A program made the position numbers and the translations under genes. Of a stretch of 50,413 nucleotides of DNA, positions 3,490-50,413 are shown piece after piece; within the stretch, counting starts at the first letter, position 1; each line of letters opens with the position of its first letter. Source of the stretch: a virus; the IMG/VR virus record IMGVR_UViG_3300014501_001247, positions 1 through 50,413 of that record; one strand, 5' to 3'. Under the pieces are notes generated by a model. It did not search any database, was not told the origin of the DNA, and saw only the letters and a list, made by a program, of their open reading frames with translations.

Positions 3490-3815
3490 GGCGCACCCGC
3501 TTTCTTCGGCGCGGCGTAGGCCGCCTTGACGTTGCCGATGCAGGCGCGGCCGATGTCGATCTCGCCGGCGGCCTTGATCAGCGCGACGTCGTCGCGCGCG
3601 AACGCGATGCGCGCGTCGGTCTTGGCCGTCACCGGCGGCAGCGTCACCGGAGCGAGCGCGCGCGCGCAGGTGTCGAGCGCGCCGAGATCGACCGCCAGCG
3701 GCGGCGCCCCCGGCTTAGTGGCCGGTGCGAGCGCGCAGCTGCAGAACAGCGGCGCCGACAGTGCAAGAAGGAGCGCCCGACTTGGAGCCCTTCGCGGCCG
3801 CGAGTTGTTTCTCAT
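3486..3815 (-). CDS. Putative outer-membrane spanin lipoprotein (Rz1-like)
   Basis: The 109-residue protein begins with a basic stretch and a hydrophobic signal (RALLLALSAPLFCSCALA) containing two cysteines suitable for lipoprotein processing, although the lipobox is not canonical. The mature part has Pro/Ala-rich segments (PATKPGAPP, LAPVTLPPVT). The start lies inside the 3' part of the gene for the inner-membrane spanin in a different frame, the classic Rz/Rz1 overlap. Expected role: outer-membrane partner that fuses with the inner membrane at the last step of lysis. The assignment rests on overlap and signal rather than on close family resemblance. Confidence 0.65.
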   Translation of the reverse strand: MRNNSRPRRAPSRALLLALSAPLFCSCALAPATKPGAPPLAVDLGALDTCARALAPVTLPPVTAKTDARIAFARDDVALIKAAGEIDIGRACIGNVKAAYAAPKKAGAP

Positions 3816-4182
3816 AGGCTGCCACCTGCTGCTTGAGGTCGTCGGATTGTTTCGACAGCGACGCGATCTGCGGGTTGTATTCGGCCCGCACCGATGCCCG
3901 GACGGCTTGGTTGTGCGCGTCGGCGATCACCTGCGCGGCCTTGTCGGCCTTGTCCCATTGGGCCTGTACATCGGCCCGCCCGGTATGGTCGCCGTAGACG
4001 ACGCCGCCGAAGGCGGCCAGGACCGTGATGACGCCGGCGATCGCGATCGGGCGCGCTACGGCCACGAACCAGCCCAGCGCAACGAGCACCGCGATAGCGC
4101 CGAGCGAAAAGCTGCCCCACTCGGTCACGCGGGCAATCTGGTGCAGCGCGTCGAAGAAGCTGCCGCCGAGCGGATCAAACAT
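3715..4182 (-). CDS. Putative inner-membrane spanin (Rz-like)
   Basis: The 155-residue product has two hydrophobic segments near residues 24-45 and 47-65 (FSLGAIAVLVALGWFVAV; IAIAGVITVLAAFGGVVYG). These are followed by a long, Gln/Lys-rich periplasmic helix (VQAQWDKADKAAQVIADAHN through QQVAAYEKQLAAAKG) typical of i-spanins. A second frame encoding an Rz1-like lipoprotein starts within it. Its ATG overlaps the 3' end of the lysozyme gene. Together these form the spanin pair of the lysis cassette. Family members usually have one membrane segment; two here is slightly unusual. Confidence 0.72.
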   Translation of the reverse strand: MFDPLGGSFFDALHQIARVTEWGSFSLGAIAVLVALGWFVAVARPIAIAGVITVLAAFGGVVYGDHTGRADVQAQWDKADKAAQVIADAHNQAVRASVRAEYNPQIASLSKQSDDLKQQVAAYEKQLAAAKGSKSGAPSCTVGAAVLQLRARTGH

Positions 4183-5038
4183 GGTCGTTCTCGAGCTTGG
4201 CGCGGCGGTCGAGGAAGACGAAGACGCCGAGCACCGCGATCGCCGCCGCGATCGCGATGCCGATCGCCGGCGCGTGGGCGATGACCGCGAGATGGTCGAG
4301 CACGCCGAGCTCGAGCAGGTTCTGCTTCGCGGCCTTGAGCGGCTCGGCGGCGTCGTTGATCTGCTGCAGCGTCGTGAACACGCCGCCGGCGCCGGTGGTG
4401 AGACCGGCGATCGCCTGCTTGGAGGCGAGGATGCCCTTCGGCGGCGCGTTGCGCTCGGCCTTGGGCGAGAAGATCGCGTCGGGCTGCGCCGGCGGCGGCC
4501 CTTCGGCCTCGTCCGGCGTATTGAACCAGGCGATCTCGGCGGCGCGCCGGTGCACCAGTCCCTCCATGTGCTCGCCGCGCGAGGAGGTGTATTGGAGCAG
4601 CTTCGCTGGCACGGCGCGGCTGTTGCCGGCGTTGATCAGTCGGATGGCGGCGAGCGAGGCGGCCGGGCAGTTGAACCAGGTGTCGACCAGCGCGTCGAAC
4701 TGATGCTGGGTGACCGCGACCTTGAGCGCGCGATCGACGGCGCGTTCGCACGGCGCGATGTCGTCGTCGAAGATCTGATCGGCCTGCTCGCGCGTGATGC
4801 GCAGGCCCTTCACGATATGTGGGTAAACGCCCGACACCTTCATCGATCCGGCGGCGTCGGTGTGCCCAAAACCGATGGTGAGCGTGCCGCGCACGGCGCC
4901 GCCGTCCCATTCGGGATATTGCAGCTTGCCGTCGATGTGCCGCTTGCCGACCTTGTCGTCGTAGACGTAGAGGACGCACTCCTCCCACGGCTCGGTCAGT
5001 TTGGCGCGCGCTTGCGCGCTCATGCGCATGTCGCTCAT
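4175..5038 (-). CDS. Endolysin: GH24-type lysozyme with C-terminal membrane segment
   Basis: Residues 10-200 form a phage lysozyme (glycoside hydrolase 24) domain that cleaves peptidoglycan between MurNAc and GlcNAc. The expected triad is E19 (EPWEECVLYVYDD), D28 and the threonine of TIGFGHT (about T60), with a longer than usual insertion between D28 and T60. After a Pro/Ala-rich linker there is a hydrophobic C-terminal segment (APAIGIAIAAAIAVLGVFVFL, about residues 255-275). The enzyme may therefore be membrane-tethered. ATG 5038 overlaps the preceding stop (ATGA); longer upstream frames are shadows. Product length is 287 residues. Confidence 0.88.
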   Translation of the reverse strand: MSDMRMSAQARAKLTEPWEECVLYVYDDKVGKRHIDGKLQYPEWDGGAVRGTLTIGFGHTDAAGSMKVSGVYPHIVKGLRITREQADQIFDDDIAPCERAVDRALKVAVTQHQFDALVDTWFNCPAASLAAIRLINAGNSRAVPAKLLQYTSSRGEHMEGLVHRRAAEIAWFNTPDEAEGPPPAQPDAIFSPKAERNAPPKGILASKQAIAGLTTGAGGVFTTLQQINDAAEPLKAAKQNLLELGVLDHLAVIAHAPAIGIAIAAAIAVLGVFVFLDRRAKLENDHV

Positions 5039-24095: not shown

Positions 24096-24692
24096 TCAGG
24101 CTCCGAGCTGGCGCTCGTAGCCGGTCAGGAAGGTCTGCGCCGCGGCCTCGCTGTCGAAGCCCGTTTTGATCACCGCGTTGTCGCTCTCGCGGATGACGCG
24201 GAACTTATCGACCGGGCCGCCCCAGCCGATGACGTGCTTCGGGCGGCTCTTGAGCGGCGGGCGCGCCTTGACCATGTCGTCGCGCGACTTGAAGTAGAAT
24301 TCGCCCATCACCGCCCAGTTGCGGCCGCAGTCGAGCACCTTGAGCACCGCGAACACGCTCTGCTCGTCGTTGGTGACGTCGACGGTCTGGCCCGGCTGCA
24401 GCTTGGCGCGCATGACGATGTTGGCCCAGAACGACGGTTCGAACACCGCCTCATAGGGCGTGCCGCGCTCGAGGCAGATCCAGTGGCCCGGATCCTTGTG
24501 CTCGAGCAGCGACCAGCGGTTTTCCGGGAGCGGCTTGGCGTTGACGCCGGGATCCATTGACGCCTTGTCCGGCCACGGCCGGCCGGCATCGGCTGCGGGC
24601 TTTGCCGGCGCCGCCGGCGCGGCGGTCTTCGGCTTCGGCGGCGTCAAGGTGCCGGCGGTGTCGGTGTCAAGCGGCTTGGCTGCTTCGGCCAT
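24096..24692 (-). CDS. Hypothetical structural-region protein (198 aa)
   Basis: There is a strong GGAGGATATAC ribosome binding site. Residues 1-45 are Pro/Ala/Lys-rich and probably disordered (TPPKPKTAAPAAPAKPAAD). The folded part has YEAVFEPSFWANIVMRAKLQPGQTVDV, CGRNWAVMGEFYF and a C-terminal FRVIRESDNAVIKTGFDSEAAAQTFL segment, a short beta-sheet plus helix. It lies between the glycosyltransferase gene (26-nt overlap) and tail genes. Similar proteins occur in rhizobial podoviruses near TTPA, function unknown. Confidence 0.72.
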   Translation of the reverse strand: MAEAAKPLDTDTAGTLTPPKPKTAAPAAPAKPAADAGRPWPDKASMDPGVNAKPLPENRWSLLEHKDPGHWICLERGTPYEAVFEPSFWANIVMRAKLQPGQTVDVTNDEQSVFAVLKVLDCGRNWAVMGEFYFKSRDDMVKARPPLKSRPKHVIGWGGPVDKFRVIRESDNAVIKTGFDSEAAAQTFLTGYERQLGA

Positions 24693-25707
24693 GTATATCC
24701 TCCAGAGCGTGTTTCAGTTCGGCCGCGGTGTGCGACCAGGTGAGGTTGTGAACGAGGGAAACCTTCGCCGGCTCCCAGGGCAGGCGATGCGCGAGCTCGA
24801 GCGTCTCGACGATCTCCTCGACGTCGGAGGAGCCCCAGCCGTTGGCGTCAAAGGTCTGCCGCTCGAGCATGTAGGCGCGGGTCGCCAGGTCGAGGTGCCC
24901 GGTGTTGGCCGACAGGATCGTCGGCACGCCGCAGGCGAGGCATTCCATCGCCACCAGGTTGGTGCCGCCCTCGGCGCGGTTCGGGAACAGCGCGACGTCA
25001 CACTCGCGCAACACCGGCGCCAGCAAGGCGTTCGGCACCGCGCCGACATCGATCACGCGATCAGCGAACTCGGTGAGATCGAGATCCATGCCGTCGCGCA
25101 GCGCCGGCCAGGGCGAGTGCCACGCCGTCACCAGCATGGCGTCGTCGTGGCGCGCCGCGAAGATGCGAAACGCCTTGACCACCAGGTCCTGGCCTTTGCG
25201 CGGCTCGGCCTTGCCGCCTGAGAAGATGACAAACCTGCCGGGGAAGAGGTCGCGCTTGCGCGCCGGATGAAACAGCGTCGGATCGACGCCCTGCAGGATG
25301 ACGCGGACGTTCGAGAGACCGCGATCGCGCAGCAGCCGCCCGTTCCAGGTCGAGCCGGCGATGATCAGGTCGTAGCGCTTGAGCCGCTCGATCGCGGCAT
25401 CGGACAGCGGCTGCTCGAAGAAGATCGCGGCGACGCGGGCACCGGCGATCTGCTCGGGCACGCCATCGCCGTCATTGCCGAGCGCGGCGATCGCGATGGC
25501 GTCGCGCGGCCGCGGCCCGAAGCTGCGGGTCACGAAGGGCCGCAGCGCGCGCCGGCGCAGCGGATCGACCGCGATCTGCTTGAGGTCGAGCGGCCAGGAG
25601 GTTGAGGCCTCGACCGTCGGATCGCTCGCCCACTCCAGCGCCAGGTTGAGACCGTAGACGCCCCAGCCGAAGAACGAGGAGATCTGCCAGCCGAGCGAGA
25701 CCTTCAC
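24667..25707 (-). CDS. GT4-family glycosyltransferase
   Basis: GTG 25707 overlaps the upstream stop (GTGA), giving 346 residues: VKVSLGWQISSFFGWGVYGLNLALEW is the acceptor-side start of a GT-B fold. The C-terminal half has FVIFSGGKAEPRKGQDLVVKAF and a donor-sugar site (NRAEGGTNLVAMECLACGVPTIL, an E(x)7E-like motif typical of GT4 retaining enzymes). It should transfer a nucleotide-activated sugar. It is directly coupled to the TPR-glycosyltransferase-FkbM fusion gene, forming a two-gene glycosylation cassette. The target (virion protein, phage-encoded glycan or host surface) cannot be read from sequence. Confidence 0.88.
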   Translation of the reverse strand: MKVSLGWQISSFFGWGVYGLNLALEWASDPTVEASTSWPLDLKQIAVDPLRRRALRPFVTRSFGPRPRDAIAIAALGNDGDGVPEQIAGARVAAIFFEQPLSDAAIERLKRYDLIIAGSTWNGRLLRDRGLSNVRVILQGVDPTLFHPARKRDLFPGRFVIFSGGKAEPRKGQDLVVKAFRIFAARHDDAMLVTAWHSPWPALRDGMDLDLTEFADRVIDVGAVPNALLAPVLRECDVALFPNRAEGGTNLVAMECLACGVPTILSANTGHLDLATRAYMLERQTFDANGWGSSDVEEIVETLELAHRLPWEPAKVSLVHNLTWSHTAAELKHALEDIHGRSSQAA

Positions 25708-27821
25708 GCGGCCGCCTTCGGGTGGGCAGCCTTCGGATGTGTGTAGCCGAGCACGCGCGGCGCTTCGCTCGCGATCTCGCCCGGCCAGGCGGCGTCGACC
25801 TCGGCCTGTGTGCTGAAGAGGAGATTGACGATCCAGCGGCCGGAGAGCTGATGTTCCGGCAGCACTTTCGTCGGCTTCGAGCCGTCGATCGGCAGCAGGA
25901 ACGTCTCGTAGCCCGCGCGCGCCATCAGCTCGCGCAGCGAAGCCTGCGAGCCGCCGAGTTTTTGCAGGCCGAACTCGTGCAGCTCGGCGACGATGAAGGG
26001 CGGCGGCGCCTCGAATAGCGAGGCCATCGCGCCTACGAGCACGCGCTGCTCGGCGCCTTCGGTGTCGATCTTGATCAGCCGCGGTTTGAGCCCGCGGACC
26101 GCGAGCTCGTGATCGAGCGTGGTCGCCTGCATCACCGAGCTCTGCGGCTTGTCCCGTGAGGCCTGGTTCGTTGGAAATTCGCCCGGATCCCACAGCGCAT
26201 TGCCGCCGCCACCGTCGGCGCACAGATGGAAAGTCACCGGCAAGTCGGTATCCGCTACAGGCTTCGCCACGATCTCGACATTGCCGAGCGCGCCGACCGC
26301 GGCGCTCAAGGCATCGAGGTTGTTCGAGCCGGGCTCGAAGGCCAGCACCTTGCCGGCCGAACCGACCAGCTCGGCGGCGAGCACGGCGTGCTCCCCGACA
26401 TTGGCGCCGACGTCGACGAAGCAATCGCCCGGCCGCAGCACGCGCTGCATCAAACTCTTGACGTCGGGCTCGTAGACACCGCCGATGGTGCCGCCCGAGG
26501 CCGCTGCTTTTTCGGCCTTCTCGGCCGAGTTCACGCCGGTATTGATGGCGCGCACGAAGGCGCGCTCCTGGTGCAGCTGCGCCACCGCAACGAGAACGCG
26601 CGCCATGACGCCGCGCCAGTCGCGCGGCCGCTGCTGCCGGAACAGCCGCATGCTCGGATACCACGGCGTGTCGTCGCGGCCGGAGAGCCAGCGCCAGTCG
26701 TTGAACAGCGGGATGAGCAGGAATGTCTTGACGCCGAGCGCGCCGGCGATGTGCGCGATCGCGGTGTCGACCGTCACCACCAGGTCGAGGTTCTGCAGCA
26801 CGGCGGCGGTGTGCGACCACTCGCCCTCGATCATGCCGGAGAGATCGCCGACGATCCTTTGCGCCCGCGCTTGCGCGAGTTCGGCGGCGGGCTTGCCGCA
26901 TTGGAGCGAGAACACGTCGTTGCGCGGGTCGGCGGCGAGGCCAACCATGTCGGTGAACGCCATCGAGCGGATGGCGTCATTGGGATGATCCTTGTTGCCG
27001 GCCCAGGCGATGCCGATCTTGAGGCCGGCCGCGCCGAGCCGGTCGTTCGAGGCCGCGGGCGTCAGCAGCCCCGGATCCGGCGGAATGGTGTCGGGCGTGA
27101 GCCCGTAGAGGAGTGGCAGGCTCGACAGGCAGATCTGCGCGTCGAAGACGGTGCCGGCCGGATAGAAGCAGCCGACGTCGGCGATCGAGCGGTAGCCGTG
27201 AAACAGCGGCACGGTGTGGGCGTCGGTCAGGAAAGTGACCTTGTCGGCGCGCTCGCGGGCCCACGGCAGGAAGCGCGCGAACATGACGCGATCGCCGTAG
27301 CCCTGGTCGCCCCACACGCAGAGGTGCCCGGTCTTCTTGCCGGTCCAGCGCGGCGCCGGCGGCGGCGGTGCGGTGCGCGGCAGGATCTCGGCGCGGAATT
27401 CGTAGAGCGGCAGGCCGCGCGCAAAATCGCCGGCGCGCAGATACGCCGCGGCAAGGTCGAACTTGGCCTGGCCGTGATCGGGCGCGAGCGTGAGCACGCG
27501 CTGGAAACAGTCGATGGCTTGCGCGAGCAGGCCGCGGTGGGTCTTGATGGTGCCCAGCATCTGCCAGGCGGAGACGATGCTGTCGCGCTGCGCGATCGCG
27601 GCGGTCAGCAGCGCCTCGGCCTCGTCATCCTCGCCGGCGCCGATCAATAGCGAAGCGAGATTGACGCGGCGCGCGAGCGCATTCGGATCGAGCGCCACGG
27701 CGCGGCGCGCGATCGCGATCGCGGTCTCGCTGGCGCCGTCCTTGGCGACGGCGAGCGCGACGTTGTTGAGGAGCCCGGAAAGAAGCTGTTGCTCCCCCGG
27801 CACCTGCGGCTGTTCTGGCAT
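25704..27821 (-). CDS. TPR - GT9-like glycosyltransferase - FkbM methyltransferase fusion
   Basis: The 705-residue protein has three modules. Residues 15-150 are TPR repeats (AIAIARRAVALDPNALARRV; AIDCFQRVLTLAPDHGQAKF). Residues 160-425 are a GT-B glycosyltransferase of the TPR-linked GT9-like kind, with LDLVVTVDTAIAHIAGALGVKTFLLIP and WRWLSGRDDTPWYPSMRLFRQ. Residues 465-670 are an FkbM-family SAM-dependent methyltransferase with DCFVDVGANVGEHAVLA, LAFEPGSNNLDAL and IKIDTEGAEQRVL. It could transfer a sugar and O-methylate it. The ATG at 27821 sits 4 nt after GGGGGAG, itself inside the T-tract side of the upstream terminator; an alternative TTG lies 12 nt upstream. Confidence 0.9.
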   Translation of the reverse strand: MPEQPQVPGEQQLLSGLLNNVALAVAKDGASETAIAIARRAVALDPNALARRVNLASLLIGAGEDDEAEALLTAAIAQRDSIVSAWQMLGTIKTHRGLLAQAIDCFQRVLTLAPDHGQAKFDLAAAYLRAGDFARGLPLYEFRAEILPRTAPPPPAPRWTGKKTGHLCVWGDQGYGDRVMFARFLPWARERADKVTFLTDAHTVPLFHGYRSIADVGCFYPAGTVFDAQICLSSLPLLYGLTPDTIPPDPGLLTPAASNDRLGAAGLKIGIAWAGNKDHPNDAIRSMAFTDMVGLAADPRNDVFSLQCGKPAAELAQARAQRIVGDLSGMIEGEWSHTAAVLQNLDLVVTVDTAIAHIAGALGVKTFLLIPLFNDWRWLSGRDDTPWYPSMRLFRQQRPRDWRGVMARVLVAVAQLHQERAFVRAINTGVNSAEKAEKAAASGGTIGGVYEPDVKSLMQRVLRPGDCFVDVGANVGEHAVLAAELVGSAGKVLAFEPGSNNLDALSAAVGALGNVEIVAKPVADTDLPVTFHLCADGGGGNALWDPGEFPTNQASRDKPQSSVMQATTLDHELAVRGLKPRLIKIDTEGAEQRVLVGAMASLFEAPPPFIVAELHEFGLQKLGGSQASLRELMARAGYETFLLPIDGSKPTKVLPEHQLSGRWIVNLLFSTQAEVDAAWPGEIASEAPRVLGYTHPKAAHPKAAA

Positions 27822-27830
27822 CCACTCCCC

Positions 27831-27873
27831 CAAAAAAGAAAAGCCCCCGGGCCGTTTTTTCGGTCCGGGGGCT
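27831..27873 (-). terminator. Strong intrinsic terminator after decoration-protein gene
   Basis: On the minus strand AGCCCCCGG.CCG pairs with CGG.CCGGGGGCT around an A-rich loop, followed by TTTTCTTTTTT. It lies 24 nt beyond the stop of the decoration protein and 10 nt before the ATG of the glycosyltransferase fusion. It should reduce read-through from the very highly expressed capsid genes into the glycosylation genes. Confidence 0.92.
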
Positions 27874-46522: not shown

Positions 46523-46789
46523 TTACGCCGCGCGGGATTTCCTGGTGGCGGCGCGCGTGCGGCCGCGACGCCGGGCGAAGAGCTCGGCGAGGTCAGGCCG
46601 CAGCAGACCCGGCGCGATGCCGGTCTTTCTCGTGATCTCCGGCAGCTGTTCGACCTCGGGCTTCCGTTCCCCCGTCTCCCAACGTGAAATGGACGCCTTC
46701 GACGTGCCGAGCTGCTGCGCCAGCTGCTCCTGAGTGAGCGGCGGCGACTGACGTTCCCGATAGGCCCTCAGCGGGTGGAGTGATTCCAT
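46523..46789 (-). CDS. XRE-family repressor, probably translated from a leaderless mRNA
   Basis: The 88-residue protein has a helix-turn-helix at about residues 18-70 (LTQEQLAQQLGTSKASISRWETGERKPEVEQLPEITRKTGIAP). A C-terminal 'LRPDLAELFARRR' and an Arg-rich tail follow. It is a small CI/Cro-like regulator. Its promoter has TTGACA at 46821-46826 and TAACAA at 46797-46802 (minus strand), which places the transcription start at or next to the ATG (46789). There is no Shine-Dalgarno. The operator 46801-46813 lies between the boxes, so it is probably autoregulated or regulated by the divergent XRE protein. Confidence 0.85.
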   Translation of the reverse strand: MESLHPLRAYRERQSPPLTQEQLAQQLGTSKASISRWETGERKPEVEQLPEITRKTGIAPGLLRPDLAELFARRRGRTRAATRKSRAA

Positions 46790-46796
46790 ACCCCGC

Positions 46797-46826
46797 TTGT
46801 TACCGCATTGGTAGCAGGCCTGTCAA
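46797..46826 (-). promoter_or_regulatory. Leftward promoter P-left with internal operator
   Basis: Minus strand: TTGACA (46821-46826), 18-nt spacer, TAACAA (46797-46802). The 13-nt dyad TACC(N5)GGTA (46801-46813) begins exactly 7 nt after TTGACA. The same spacing occurs at the rightward promoter at 47841. Repressor binding would block RNA polymerase. Confidence 0.7.
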
Positions 46827-46835
46827 GCACGGCGC

Positions 46836-46848
46836 TACCGGATCGGTA
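46836..46848. promoter_or_regulatory. Operator O2 (TACCGGATCGGTA)
   Basis: A near-palindromic 13-mer, TACCG-GAT-CGGTA, midway between the divergent XRE genes. It matches the dyads at 46801-46813, 47820-47832 and 47854-47866. It lies 37 nt upstream of the start codon of the rightward XRE gene and could control its promoter. No clear -35 box precedes it. Confidence 0.72.
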
Positions 46849-46884
46849 GACGACGGCGCGGTCCCGGAGGGCTAAGTTGCCAAC

Positions 46885-47202
46885 ATGGTAACGGGAATCA
46901 TGCTGCAGGCACGCGGACATCTGTACATCGAAGAGTGGATGAAAGAGCTCGGCCTCACCGACGAGAAGCTCGGGCTGCGCATGGACAAAAGCCGCACCAC
47001 GATTTGGCGCTGGCGGACCGAACAGCACCGGCTAAACCCCGAAAAGATCGCCGATATCGCAACGGCAATGGGGCTCGAACCGGACCAACTGTGGCGAACC
47101 CCGAGCCGGCCGAGCCTCGACGCGCTGGTCAAGAATGCGTCGGACGACATGGTCAAGAAGGCCGCCGACGTCGTCAACATCCTGCTGAAGACCGGGACCT
47201 AG
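46885..47202 (+). CDS. XRE-family regulator divergent from the repressor
   Basis: The 105-residue protein has a helix-turn-helix at residues 14-70 (RGHLYIEEWMKELGLTDEKLGLRMDKSRTTIWRWRTEQHRLNPEKIADIATAMGLEPDQLW). This HLYI.EW....LT...L...M..S..TI.R.E pattern is typical of an XRE family frequent in rhizobial prophages. It is divergent from the gene at 46523 across a 95-nt region with two operators, so the two form a bistable-switch candidate. GGAGG lies 14 nt from the ATG, a longer than usual spacing. Which of the two acts as CI or Cro cannot be told. Confidence 0.84.
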   Translation: MVTGIMLQARGHLYIEEWMKELGLTDEKLGLRMDKSRTTIWRWRTEQHRLNPEKIADIATAMGLEPDQLWRTPSRPSLDALVKNASDDMVKKAADVVNILLKTGT

Positions 47203-47213
47203 CGAGTGATTCG

Positions 47214-47498
47214 GTGGGCGAACGCACCGACAAATTCCTGGCACGCAGGGCCGCCGACCGGACAACTTGCGTCTGGGCAAACCTCATCGCCGTGGCCGTT
47301 TGCCTGTTCGACTACACCGTCGCCGGGCACGAATGGGCGCTCGAAACCCTCGCGGCGTTGGTGATTCTCATCAATGGCGGCTATCTCCTGATGGAACGCG
47401 CCGAGCTCAAGCGCGCCCAGGAAGACGACGCAATGACCGAGCGGGAAAACGCGCGCGCCCGAGCAGTCCGTGACCAGCGCTGGGGGAGTGGGCGGTGA
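47214..47498 (+). CDS. Two-segment membrane protein
   Basis: GTG 47214 gives 94 residues, with two hydrophobic helices (TTCVWANLIAVAVCLFDYTVAG and WALETLAALVILINGGYLLM) and a charged C-terminal helix (ERAELKRAQEDDAMTERENARARA). It lies immediately downstream of the XRE gene. Lysogenic-conversion membrane proteins such as superinfection exclusion factors often occupy this position; no specific family is recognised. The ribosome binding site is weak. Confidence 0.62.
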   Translation: MGERTDKFLARRAADRTTCVWANLIAVAVCLFDYTVAGHEWALETLAALVILINGGYLLMERAELKRAQEDDAMTERENARARAVRDQRWGSGR

Positions 47499-47833
47499 TT
47501 CGCCGCGGCGCCCTGGGGCTCGTGTGTGCTCTCCTGGCCGTGGGGCCGGGCGCGCGAGCCAATCCGCTTTGCGCCATGTCGCGCGAGCAGGCCAACCACT
47601 CCCCGGCCTGCGTCCGCTATTATTTCACCTGCCAGGGCCAAATGGTTCCGCTCAAGGGCGAGGGCATCTACGCCAACCTCTCGCAGCTGGAGCGGCAGCG
47701 CCTGATGCTTGGGCTCGTCTTCACCGCGGCCGAGAAGGACTGCGACACCTTCAGCTATCAGGAGGCCCTGGCGGCGATGCGGGCAAAAATCTTCATGCTC
47801 GAAGGCCGCCCGGGGCTGTTACCGGATCGGTAA
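47495..47833 (+). CDS. Secreted small protein; 3' end carries operator O3
   Basis: GTG 47495 overlaps the preceding stop (GTGA). The product has a signal peptide (RGALGLVCALLAVGPGARA) and a 90-residue mature part with five cysteines (PLCAM, PACVRYYFTCQG, DCDTF) suited to disulfides in the periplasm. Its last codons (L-P-D-R-stop) coincide with the operator 47820-47832, so the operator is encoded in the gene. The family is not recognised. Confidence 0.66.
   Translation: MIRRGALGLVCALLAVGPGARANPLCAMSREQANHSPACVRYYFTCQGQMVPLKGEGIYANLSQLERQRLMLGLVFTAAEKDCDTFSYQEALAAMRAKIFMLEGRPGLLPDR
47820..47832. promoter_or_regulatory. Operator O3 (TACCGGATCGGTA)
   Basis: Identical in all 13 positions to O2 at 46836. 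It overlaps the stop codon of the preceding gene and lies 9 nt upstream of the TTGACA box at 47841, so it can act as a second, upstream site of the rightward promoter. Confidence 0.75.
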
Positions 47834-47840
47834 ATTTCGG

Positions 47841-47870
47841 TTGACAGTGGCGTTACCGATCCGGTAGCGT
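47841..47870 (+). promoter_or_regulatory. Rightward promoter P-right with operator O4
   Basis: TTGACA (47841-47846), 18-nt spacer, TAGCGT (47865-47870) as a weak -10. Operator TACCGATCCGGTA (47854-47866) begins exactly 7 nt after TTGACA, as at the leftward promoter. Predicted start near 47877, leaving a short leader before ATG 47910. It should drive the whole rightward block. Confidence 0.72.
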
Positions 47871-47909: not shown

Positions 47910-48104
47910 ATGCCCACCGGCATCGTCCTTGTCTGCCCGCATTGCGACGGCCTGCTCGAGATCCTCGGGGAGGCACCGCGTCCGCACGAGCTCGAGGCGT
48001 GGCTGTGCGACTGCGGCGGCGTGTTGATGTGCGCCGAGGAGGAGCCCGAGGGCGCCAGCGCCCGTCGCGGCGCCGCACCGCCGACCGCGCCGCGGGAGGG
48101 CTGA
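47910..48104 (+). CDS. Small zinc-ribbon protein (first gene of rightward operon)
   Basis: The 64-residue protein MPTGIVLVCPHCDGLLEILGE continues WLCDCGGVLMCAEEEPEG, giving CxxC and CxC knuckles that probably bind one zinc ion. GGGAGTGCGTC precedes the ATG. It is the first gene downstream of the repressed rightward promoter, so it would be expressed immediately on induction. Function unknown. Confidence 0.7.
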   Translation: MPTGIVLVCPHCDGLLEILGEAPRPHELEAWLCDCGGVLMCAEEEPEGASARRGAAPPTAPREG

Positions 48105-48107
48105 GCC

Positions 48108-48410
48108 GTGGGCTTCCTCACCGCGATCGGCCTTTCCACCGGCTTTCTGCGTTCCGAGCCGCCGGCCGGCAAGGTGCGCCAGAGCCATATCGCGCCGCGG
48201 CGCCCCGGCGTAACCGCCGGCGGCTTCGTCGATCCGCGTCAGCGCGCCGGGACCAAGCGCATTGCGGTCACCATCGACGACGCCACGTTCGCCCGCGTCG
48301 CCGCCTTCGCCGCGGCCGAAGAGGTGAGCTTTGCCGCCGCGGCGCGCCTCCTCATCGAGCGCGGCTGCGCCGCGCTGCCTAATGCGAAGGAGGCCCCGCC
48401 ATGCCGCTGA
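48108..48410 (+). CDS. Ribbon-helix-helix-like DNA-binding protein
   Basis: GTG 48108 gives 100 residues. The C-terminal half, TKRIAVTIDDATFARVAAFAAAEEVSFAAAARLLIERGC, fits a ribbon-helix-helix (Arc/CopG-like) fold: a short strand followed by two helices. The N-terminal 50 residues are basic and Gly/Pro-rich. Likely an early transcription regulator acting on phage promoters. It overlaps the next gene. Confidence 0.68.
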   Translation: MGFLTAIGLSTGFLRSEPPAGKVRQSHIAPRRPGVTAGGFVDPRQRAGTKRIAVTIDDATFARVAAFAAAEEVSFAAAARLLIERGCAALPNAKEAPPCR

Positions 48411-48901
48411 CGCGCCTGTTCGGCTCGAAGCGCCGCGAGACGCTGTGGCTGCGCGAGAAGCACGCCGCCTATGTGGCCGGCCGCGGCCGCCTCCCGATCT
48501 GCAACCTGTGCGGCCTCCCCGTCGCGCAAACCGACGCCTGGGACGAGAGCCACCATCGCGAAAAACCGCGCGCCTTCGGCGGCGGCCGCGGCCTCGAGCA
48601 CGTCGGCATCGCCCACCACCGCTGCAACCACGAGCACGGCGCCAAGGTCGTCACCCCGGCCAAGGCCAAGGCCGACCGCGTGCGCCGCTTCCACATCGGC
48701 GCCGGCGGCCCCGGGCTCGGCAAGGCGCGCATGCGCGGCGGCCGCCGCTCGGGCGAGCGCAAGACCTTCGGCCACGGCGTCGTGCGCCGGCAAAGCGCCG
48801 CCGAGCGCCACGCCGCCATGCGCGAGCGCCTGGCGCTCACCGCCGCCGACGGCTCGCCGGTCGGGCTGTGGGCGCCCGACCCGCCGGCGGCGGAGGCGTG
48901 A
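48401..48901 (+). CDS. HNH endonuclease
   Basis: The 166-residue protein has a ββα-metal HNH motif: CNLCGLP (C34, C37), ESHHREKPRAFGGG (H51-H52) and HVGIAHHRCNHEHG (H72-H73, C75, N76, H77). A long basic C-terminal tail (KAKADRVRRFHIG; RMRGGRRSGERK) follows. Such enzymes assist packaging when beside terminase, but this copy is in the early rightward operon, so a role in recombination, host DNA cutting or homing is as likely. No intron is apparent. Confidence 0.86.
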   Translation: MPLTRLFGSKRRETLWLREKHAAYVAGRGRLPICNLCGLPVAQTDAWDESHHREKPRAFGGGRGLEHVGIAHHRCNHEHGAKVVTPAKAKADRVRRFHIGAGGPGLGKARMRGGRRSGERKTFGHGVVRRQSAAERHAAMRERLALTAADGSPVGLWAPDPPAAEA

Positions 48902-50243: not shown

Positions 50244-50413
50244 TGTCGCCGACAAAAATTGTCCGGGGCGCAGCCCCGGACCCATTATTGTTTGATCGCT
50301 CCGGCTCCGGCGACGGCTCCGGCTACGGCTCCGGCTCCGGCTCCGGCTACGGCTACGGCTCCGGCTACGGCTACGGCTCCGGCTACGGCTACGGCGACGG
50401 CGACGGCTCCGGC
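50234..50413 (+). CDS. Gly-Ser-Tyr-Asp repeat protein, truncated by the window end
   Basis: ATG 50234 opens a frame of 60 codons with no stop before the window ends. After MEIVSPTKIVRGAAPDPLLFD it turns into alternating Gly with Ser, Tyr or Asp (GSGYGYGSGYGYG...). Such proteins follow DUF6948 genes in other phages. If the molecule is circular the frame continues into the frame at position 1. The first codons overlap a perfect hairpin (50261-50281), so the N-terminus may be wrong. Confidence 0.55.
   Translation, partial: MEIVSPTKIVRGAAPDPLLFDRSGSGDGSGYGSGSGSGYGYGSGYGYGSGYGYGDGDGSG
50261..50281. terminator. Perfect 9-bp hairpin, possibly a bidirectional terminator
   Basis: GTCCGGGGC and GCCCCGGAC are exact inverted repeats around GCA. 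The plus-strand continuation is CCATTATTGTTTG; the minus-strand continuation is AATTTTTG. It could terminate the rightward operon weakly, or be a host-type intergenic palindrome now translated as part of the repeat protein. Confidence 0.5.
50296..50413. repeat. Tandem GGCTCC / GGCTAC / GGCGAC hexanucleotide array
   Basis: About 118 bp made only of GGC alternating with TCC, TAC or GAC. It stays in one reading frame to the last base of the window. It encodes Gly-Ser, Gly-Tyr and Gly-Asp dipeptides. Being at the edge, its true length is unknown and may be an assembly limit. Confidence 0.9.

Follow-up and report, generated by a model that had tools for sequence, protein, structure and literature searches.

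Results

Two divergent XRE genes and five predicted operators in a temperate podovirus-like phage

The window analysed here is the complete record of an uncultivated virus, 50,413 bases in length. Because its gene products include a tyrosine integrase (Pfam E=3e-17), a terminase small subunit, a capsid and a podovirus-type head-tail connector that is ~24% identical to those of Pelagibacter podoviruses, we take it to be a temperate podovirus-like phage. Two long minus-strand ORFs (27833-25704 and 26901-24667; window 24667-27833) lie among the virion genes, and their products, as read by eye, have a TPR/methyltransferase-like and a glycosyltransferase-like appearance, which would be unusual podovirus cargo. 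The record closes with a GC-rich short tandem repeat (about 50270-50413) that codes for a Gly/Ser/Tyr-rich tail (GSGYGSG...) and perhaps marks the point where assembly stopped.

The region of interest contains two divergent XRE genes, a pair of small genes downstream of XRE2, and the start of a rightward operon, together with five predicted operators arranged as a group of three on the left and a pair on the right (Table 1). A blastn search with this putative immunity region returned no match in known phages.

Table 1 Positions in the window of the genes, promoter elements and predicted operators of the putative immunity region
Feature	Position	Strand	Description
XRE1	46523..46789	-	88 aa, HTH_3 (Pfam E=1e-10); putatively Cro-like, first gene of the predicted leftward lytic operon
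-10-like TAACAA of leftward promoter PL	46797..46802	-	18-nt spacer; XRE1 ATG 7 nt further
O1, predicted operator TACCGCATTGGTA	46801..46813	.	position kept in 12 lineages
TTGACA, -35 of PL	46821..46826	-	between O1 and O2
O2, predicted operator TACCGGATCGGTA	46836..46848	.	centre 35 bp from O1, 42 bp from O3
Weak -10-like hexamer CTAAGT	46872..46877	+	7 nt ahead of XRE2 ATG
O3, degenerate predicted operator TGCCAACATGGTA	46878..46890	.	contains XRE2 start codon
XRE2	46885..47202	+	105 aa, HTH_3 (Pfam E=9.4e-7), without S24 domain; putative lysogenic repressor, cI position
orf3	47214..47498	+	94 aa, GTG start, one hydrophobic segment; inner-membrane candidate, after XRE2
orf4	47495..47833	+	112 aa; secreted candidate with a signal-peptide-like segment at the N terminus; overlaps stop of orf3, 3' end within O4
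O4, predicted operator TACCGGATCGGTA	47820..47832	.	overlaps orf4 stop codon
TTGACA, -35 of rightward promoter PR	47841..47846	+	between O4 and O5; equivalent in relatives
O5, predicted operator TACCGATCCGGTA	47854..47866	.	exact reverse complement of O2/O4; centre 34 bp from O4
orf5	47910..48104	+	first gene of rightward operon
RHH-like gene	48108-48410	+	after orf5
HNH-like gene	48401-48901	+	after the RHH-like gene

The dyad sites are unique to this region of the record

A first-pass annotation of this DNA had described four 13-bp dyads, at 46801, 46836, 47820 and 47854, as being restricted to the surroundings of the two XRE genes and the start of the rightward operon. Their coordinates were correct to the base, and no other exact TACC-N5-GGTA is present in the 50,413-bp record, for which 100 shuffles give a mean expectation of 0.06 copies. 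The genome scan with one mismatch that the annotation had proposed added only 21744 and 46878, and the many equally good sites elsewhere that it had named as evidence against its proposal are absent from the record. In a search across dyads with 4-bp arms and spacers of 3-8, TACC/5 was the sole family with at least four copies all lying within 1.1 kb, and a family confined in this way arose in 0 of 40 dinucleotide shuffles. Three of the four dyads are in fact one 13-mer, since the dyad at 47854 is the exact reverse complement of those at 46836 and 47820.

Some elements of the original description required amendment. While all four exact dyads are real, the sites total five, including a degenerate fifth (46878-46890) that is kept in relatives; and the 13-bp dyad, exact at four places, is better described as a 15-bp site, TTACC-N5-GGTAA. 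The suggested placement of an operator within a stop codon was right insofar as the dyad at 47820 overlaps the stop of ORF 47495-47833 (...LPDR*), but this is an incidental feature, given that relatives have the site just 3' of the repressor stop. TTGACA hexamers do stand exactly 7 nt ahead of a dyad on both sides (46826-46821 on the minus strand, 47841-47846 on the plus strand). The dyads therein lie mostly between -35 and -10, as had been suggested, but their final bases (TAA/TAG) begin a weak -10: the first bases of the PL -10-like TAACAA coincide with the end of O1, and a weak TAGCGT starts at 47865, at O5. In a literature search, which would miss operator sequences given only in figures, we found no paper describing the TACC-N5-GGTA operator family.

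Relatives recovered by DNA pattern share the XRE pair and the operator geometry

When virus contigs were scanned with the dyad-pair pattern alone, with no protein input, the matches listed included L222, L258 and L275 among others; those listed for a TTGACA-N7-dyad scan included L128. In L222 the XRE1 and XRE2 proteins are 65% and 45% identical to those of the window, and in L128 47% and 43%. Many of the matches listed for the looser DNA scans were chance matches, and only loci with homologous XRE genes were kept; a stricter promoter pattern returned 13 virus stretches and 8 bacterial stretches. Because the relatives recovered by DNA alone carry the same two XRE genes, coincidence is ruled out. 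The comparison with related loci that the annotation had called for uncovered the same layout in diverged phages. Across dyad pairs more generally, HTH genes lay near 18 of 37 pairs with a period of 33-35 vs 13 of 91 pairs with other periods (Fisher p = 9e-5), against a baseline of 12% of random positions.

Further relatives came from a protein search with XRE1. XRE2 alone found no match in virus contigs, and its alignment was too divergent for use as a scan query. Homologues of XRE2 occur in L222, L128, L258 and L275. Homologues of XRE1 in the same position are about 41-58% identical to it; identity of XRE2 is about 16-44%, far below the conservation of XRE1 or of the sites. What ties the sites most strongly to the XRE1/XRE2 pair is that the nearest XRE1 homologues have them, whereas they are absent from lower-ranked homologues. 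The relatives are mostly metagenomic contigs, with Bradyrhizobium phage ppBjS10J-1 (L283; OP596615) as the only named phage record.

Comparison across 12 lineages revealed three sites, not two, in the left region. O1 and O2 flank the PL -35 with their centres 34-36 bp apart, except in ppBjS10J-1, where the distance is 44, while O2 and O3 are separated by 42-44 bp; O2 was taken to be the best-matching position in a 16-bp range, and several lineages have degenerate versions of O2 and O3. The degenerate O3 contains the XRE2 ATG in 11 lineages; ppBjS10J-1 keeps the design, but without an O3 on the ATG. A site match with ≤2 mismatches was found at 6 XRE2 starts vs 1 of ~366 other ORF starts in these loci when the same first-ATG rule was applied. 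To the right there are two sites, O4 and O5, set 33-35 bp apart (45 in ppBjS10J-1) around the rightward -35; no right pair was found in L292 or L298. Within one phage the left and right pair spacings match to within about 1-2 bp; the identical promoter-operator geometry that had been noted for the two sides of the window extends, with its spacing, to the relatives. This includes ppBjS10J-1, whose pairs (3872-3950 and 4329-4385) match each other at 44 and 45 bp, about one helical turn above the other lineages.

Variant sites AACC-N5-GGTC and GACC-N5-GGTT were seen at conserved spacing upstream of the XRE1 homologue in L298 and L005, which suggests that operator specificity has shifted among members of the XRE1 family. 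Pseudanabaena phage Pam5 (L284) has the same divergent gene pair, and its right region (3603-3648) contains two TTGCG-N5-CGCA dyads 32 bp apart around TTGCAT; since this is another dyad, we set Pam5 aside from the TACC class as a parallel design. TACC sites are absent from the known phages mEp390 and YMC11/07/P54, which carry relatives of the S24 repressor.

Promoter positions suggest leaderless transcripts

No full sigma-70 promoter in the window passes a consensus scan, the -10 boxes being weak. In 12 lineages the PL -35 position is occupied by TTGAC or TTGC, and in most lineages the PL -10 reads TAANNN and is built in part from the last bases of O1. The first T of this -35 lies 34-37 nt from the XRE1 ATG in 13 of the 14 sequences compared (typically 36) and 40 nt in the other; at such a distance the XRE1 transcript should begin at or beside its AUG, and the mRNA therefore appears to be leaderless. 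The XRE2 mRNA is probably leaderless as well: a -10-like box lies 7 nt ahead of its ATG in relatives (TATACT in L299, GATACT in L302, TAAAAT in L301, CATAAT in L285), with no recognisable -35 alongside. There is precedent for this reading, because both the cI and cro mRNAs of PY54 have been shown to be leaderless (PMC4488713).

Sister loci point to XRE2 as the lysogenic repressor

Both XRE1 and XRE2 match the Pfam family HTH_3. The AlphaFold model of XRE1 has a five-helix Xre fold (pLDDT 82), while the Xre fold of XRE2 is predicted at modest confidence only. Their probable roles are suggested by sister loci, L265 and L268 (both Sphingomonas genomes), L276, L175 and L274, in which an HTH+S24-type repressor holds the XRE2 position, surrounded by the sites and followed by the right doublet. 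These repressors are roughly 216-245 aa long, with a Peptidase_S24 domain in the members scanned (L265, L276, L175), and in L265, L268 and L226 a small HTH gene diverges from the repressor. By position, then, XRE2 would play the cI role as lysogenic repressor and XRE1 that of a Cro-like protein. Since XRE2 matches only HTH_3 in Pfam, with no S24 domain, RecA-stimulated cleavage is not expected.

The two kinds of repressor are accompanied by different sites. Beside XRE2-type repressors these read, with few exceptions, TTACC-N5-GGTAA, and beside S24-type repressors ATACC-N5-GGTAT in 18 of 19 cases; loci of the S24 class with the outer A/T are L265, L268, L276, L175, L274 and L282. As outer operator base pairs were found to set phage specificity in a study of PY54 (PMC4488713), the change from outer T/A to A/T could plausibly act as a one-base specificity switch. 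A broader reading, which we regard as possible and put forward tentatively, is that these loci form a widespread immunity superfamily, with known hosts that are chiefly alphaproteobacteria, in which a single 15-bp operator plan would serve both small non-cleavable XRE2 proteins (TTACC-N5-GGTAA) and cleavable S24 cI proteins (ATACC-N5-GGTAT), both divergent mRNAs would start at the AUG, and the interval between the repressor and the right operators would be a recurrent home of lysogen-expressed genes for small exported or membrane proteins. If so, new exclusion genes could be found by means of the operator grammar.

Three alternatives were weighed against these assignments. The recognition helices of the two proteins differ (SRTTIWRWR in XRE2, SKASISRWE in XRE1) and XRE2 is very divergent among lineages that keep the same sites, as might be expected if just one XRE protein binds the TACC sites and the other acts at other DNA or by protein contact, as an antirepressor in the manner of MOR of TP901-1, which contacts CI; we consider this rather improbable, since both have an Xre fold with an IxRW-type recognition helix end, both genes adjoin the sites in every lineage examined, and there would be little use for a degenerate O3 if two affinities did not differ. 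An exchange of roles, with XRE1 as a lysogenic repressor that autoregulates the strong TTGACA promoter and XRE2 as a Cro- or antirepressor-like protein, would account for the better conservation of XRE1, for the way it tracks the operators and for the resemblance of its HTH to P22 C2 and other repressor domains, but is unlikelier still, because S24 proteins, lysogenic repressors by family, hold the XRE2 position in sister loci, XRE1 heads a strand that runs on to integrase and virion genes, and the promoter of XRE2 is weak, with a site centred at about -43. Finally, although the motif is short with an unspecified centre and promoter-like hexamers are common, an origin of the dyads by chance or as sites of a host regulator is extremely improbable and was rejected on the basis of the shuffles and the expected count, the spacing shared by 12 lineages, the co-occurrence with XRE genes and the dependence of the outer base on repressor class.

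A probable lambda-like switch with a distinct operator

Taken as a whole, the locus is likely to be the immunity region of a temperate phage that works like lambda OR-cI-rex-OL, with XRE2 as lysogenic repressor and XRE1 as its Cro-like antagonist; the left region is best read as OR and the right as OL. The sequence itself shows the sites and their uniqueness, their conserved spacing, the co-occurrence with XRE genes and the S24 proteins at the cI position in sister loci, while binding, repression, repressor identity, O2 activation, cooperativity, leaderless transcripts and the function of orf3 and orf4 are inferred. XRE2 and XRE1 would both recognise sites of a single 15-bp family, TTACC-N5-GGTAA. 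With dimers on O1 and O2, the leftward lytic promoter, from which XRE1 and after it the leftward genes would be read, would be blocked; dimers on O4 and O5 would do the same to the rightward early promoter. XRE2 itself would be expressed from a weak promoter that has no -35, and its start codon probably serves also as the transcription start. Occupancy of O2 may activate this promoter, as O2 is centred about 43 bp upstream of the putative XRE2 start, a position like that of OR2 relative to lambda PRM; O3, the weaker site on the start codon, would shut XRE2 off at high XRE2 or when XRE1 wins. Sharing an operon with XRE2, orf3 and orf4 would be accessory genes expressed in the lysogen.

The first-pass comparison with lambda OL/OR therefore holds, refined to three plus two sites with outward promoters flanking a central repressor gene. 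Divergent putative repressor and cro genes share a multi-site predicted operator whose anatomy is kept in 12 lineages, and in the window as in relatives the repressor gene lies between two predicted operators with outward TTGACA promoters. In lambda, operators within a pair are spaced by ~24 bp, OL has three sites, a site lies near -42 of the repressor start and the repressor mRNA is leaderless. As predicted here, the window is like lambda in its central repressor between two multi-site operators with outward lytic promoters, its three sites on the cro side with a weaker third at the repressor promoter, its site centred near -42 of the repressor start, the probably leaderless repressor mRNA and the accessory genes between repressor and second operator. 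It differs in its unrelated operator sequence, a pair spacing of 34-35 bp rather than ~24 bp (one helical turn more), a repressor without S24 domain, two OL-side sites rather than three, and an XRE1 mRNA that also appears leaderless. As XRE2 lacks S24, we regard the system as working like lambda, yet do not file it as a member of the cleavable-cI type. The spacings of 34 and 44 bp lie one and two helical turns above lambda's, so that helical phase is kept, which may reflect cooperative dimer contacts.

Three plus two sites of one sequence family (O1-O3, O4-O5) are also the arrangement in N15 and phiKO2, which have three OR and two OL sites (PMC4488713); the immB regions of N15, phiKO2 and PY54 differ from the window in operator sequence and proteins, and there OL lies upstream of repA (PMC4488713). 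ppBjS10J-1 resembles the window in its divergent XRE pair, annotated only as two HTH proteins, and in having TACC-type sites in both regions, and differs in its 44/45 bp spacing, an O3 that is not on the ATG and flanks of the form CTACC...GGTAG; the operon after its right sites includes the recombination genes ERF, YqaJ and NinB. The closest named phage repressors by profile and fold are the DNA-binding domains of P22 C2 and 434, with different operators and low sequence identity. A P2-type C/Cox switch was rejected: the small repressor would fit, but XRE1 belongs to HTH_3 and gave no match to Cox. The switch is best read as a lambda/N15 type known in kind, with variant features in its operator family, for which our literature search gave no description, its spacing and its repressor without cleavage domain; the lambda 3+2 plan is kept with an unrelated operator, a non-cleavable repressor and spacings of 34 or 44 bp vs 24. 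This provides a readable operator grammar for a group of mostly uncultured phages: DNA alone is enough to indicate the genes for the repressor and Cro, the two lytic promoters and the genes expressed in the lysogen.

A variable slot between repressor and right operators

The slot between XRE2 and the right operators (47214-47833 in the window) is the position of rexAB in lambda. It is empty in L258, L275, L222, L265 and L276, where the right pair directly follows the repressor stop, and holds orf3 and orf4 in the window. In L268 (7225-7482), L175 (7060-7410), L274 (3371-3787), L277 (2360-3251) and L153 (4247-4741) it is filled by small membrane, lipoprotein or secreted proteins, which include in L274 a member of the Rap1a family and in L153 a membrane protein with DUF2335. 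The slot genes have no match to a known defence family; orf4 has no Pfam, PHROG or PADLOC match and orf3 no informative family match. A superinfection-exclusion gene of Pseudomonas phage Fc02 is apparently carried on the repressor transcript (PMC9936078). An exclusion role for orf3 and orf4 is only a lead, and the slot is a candidate site for lysogen-expressed exclusion genes; the variety of small membrane and secreted proteins that occupy it makes it a testable source of superinfection-exclusion genes.
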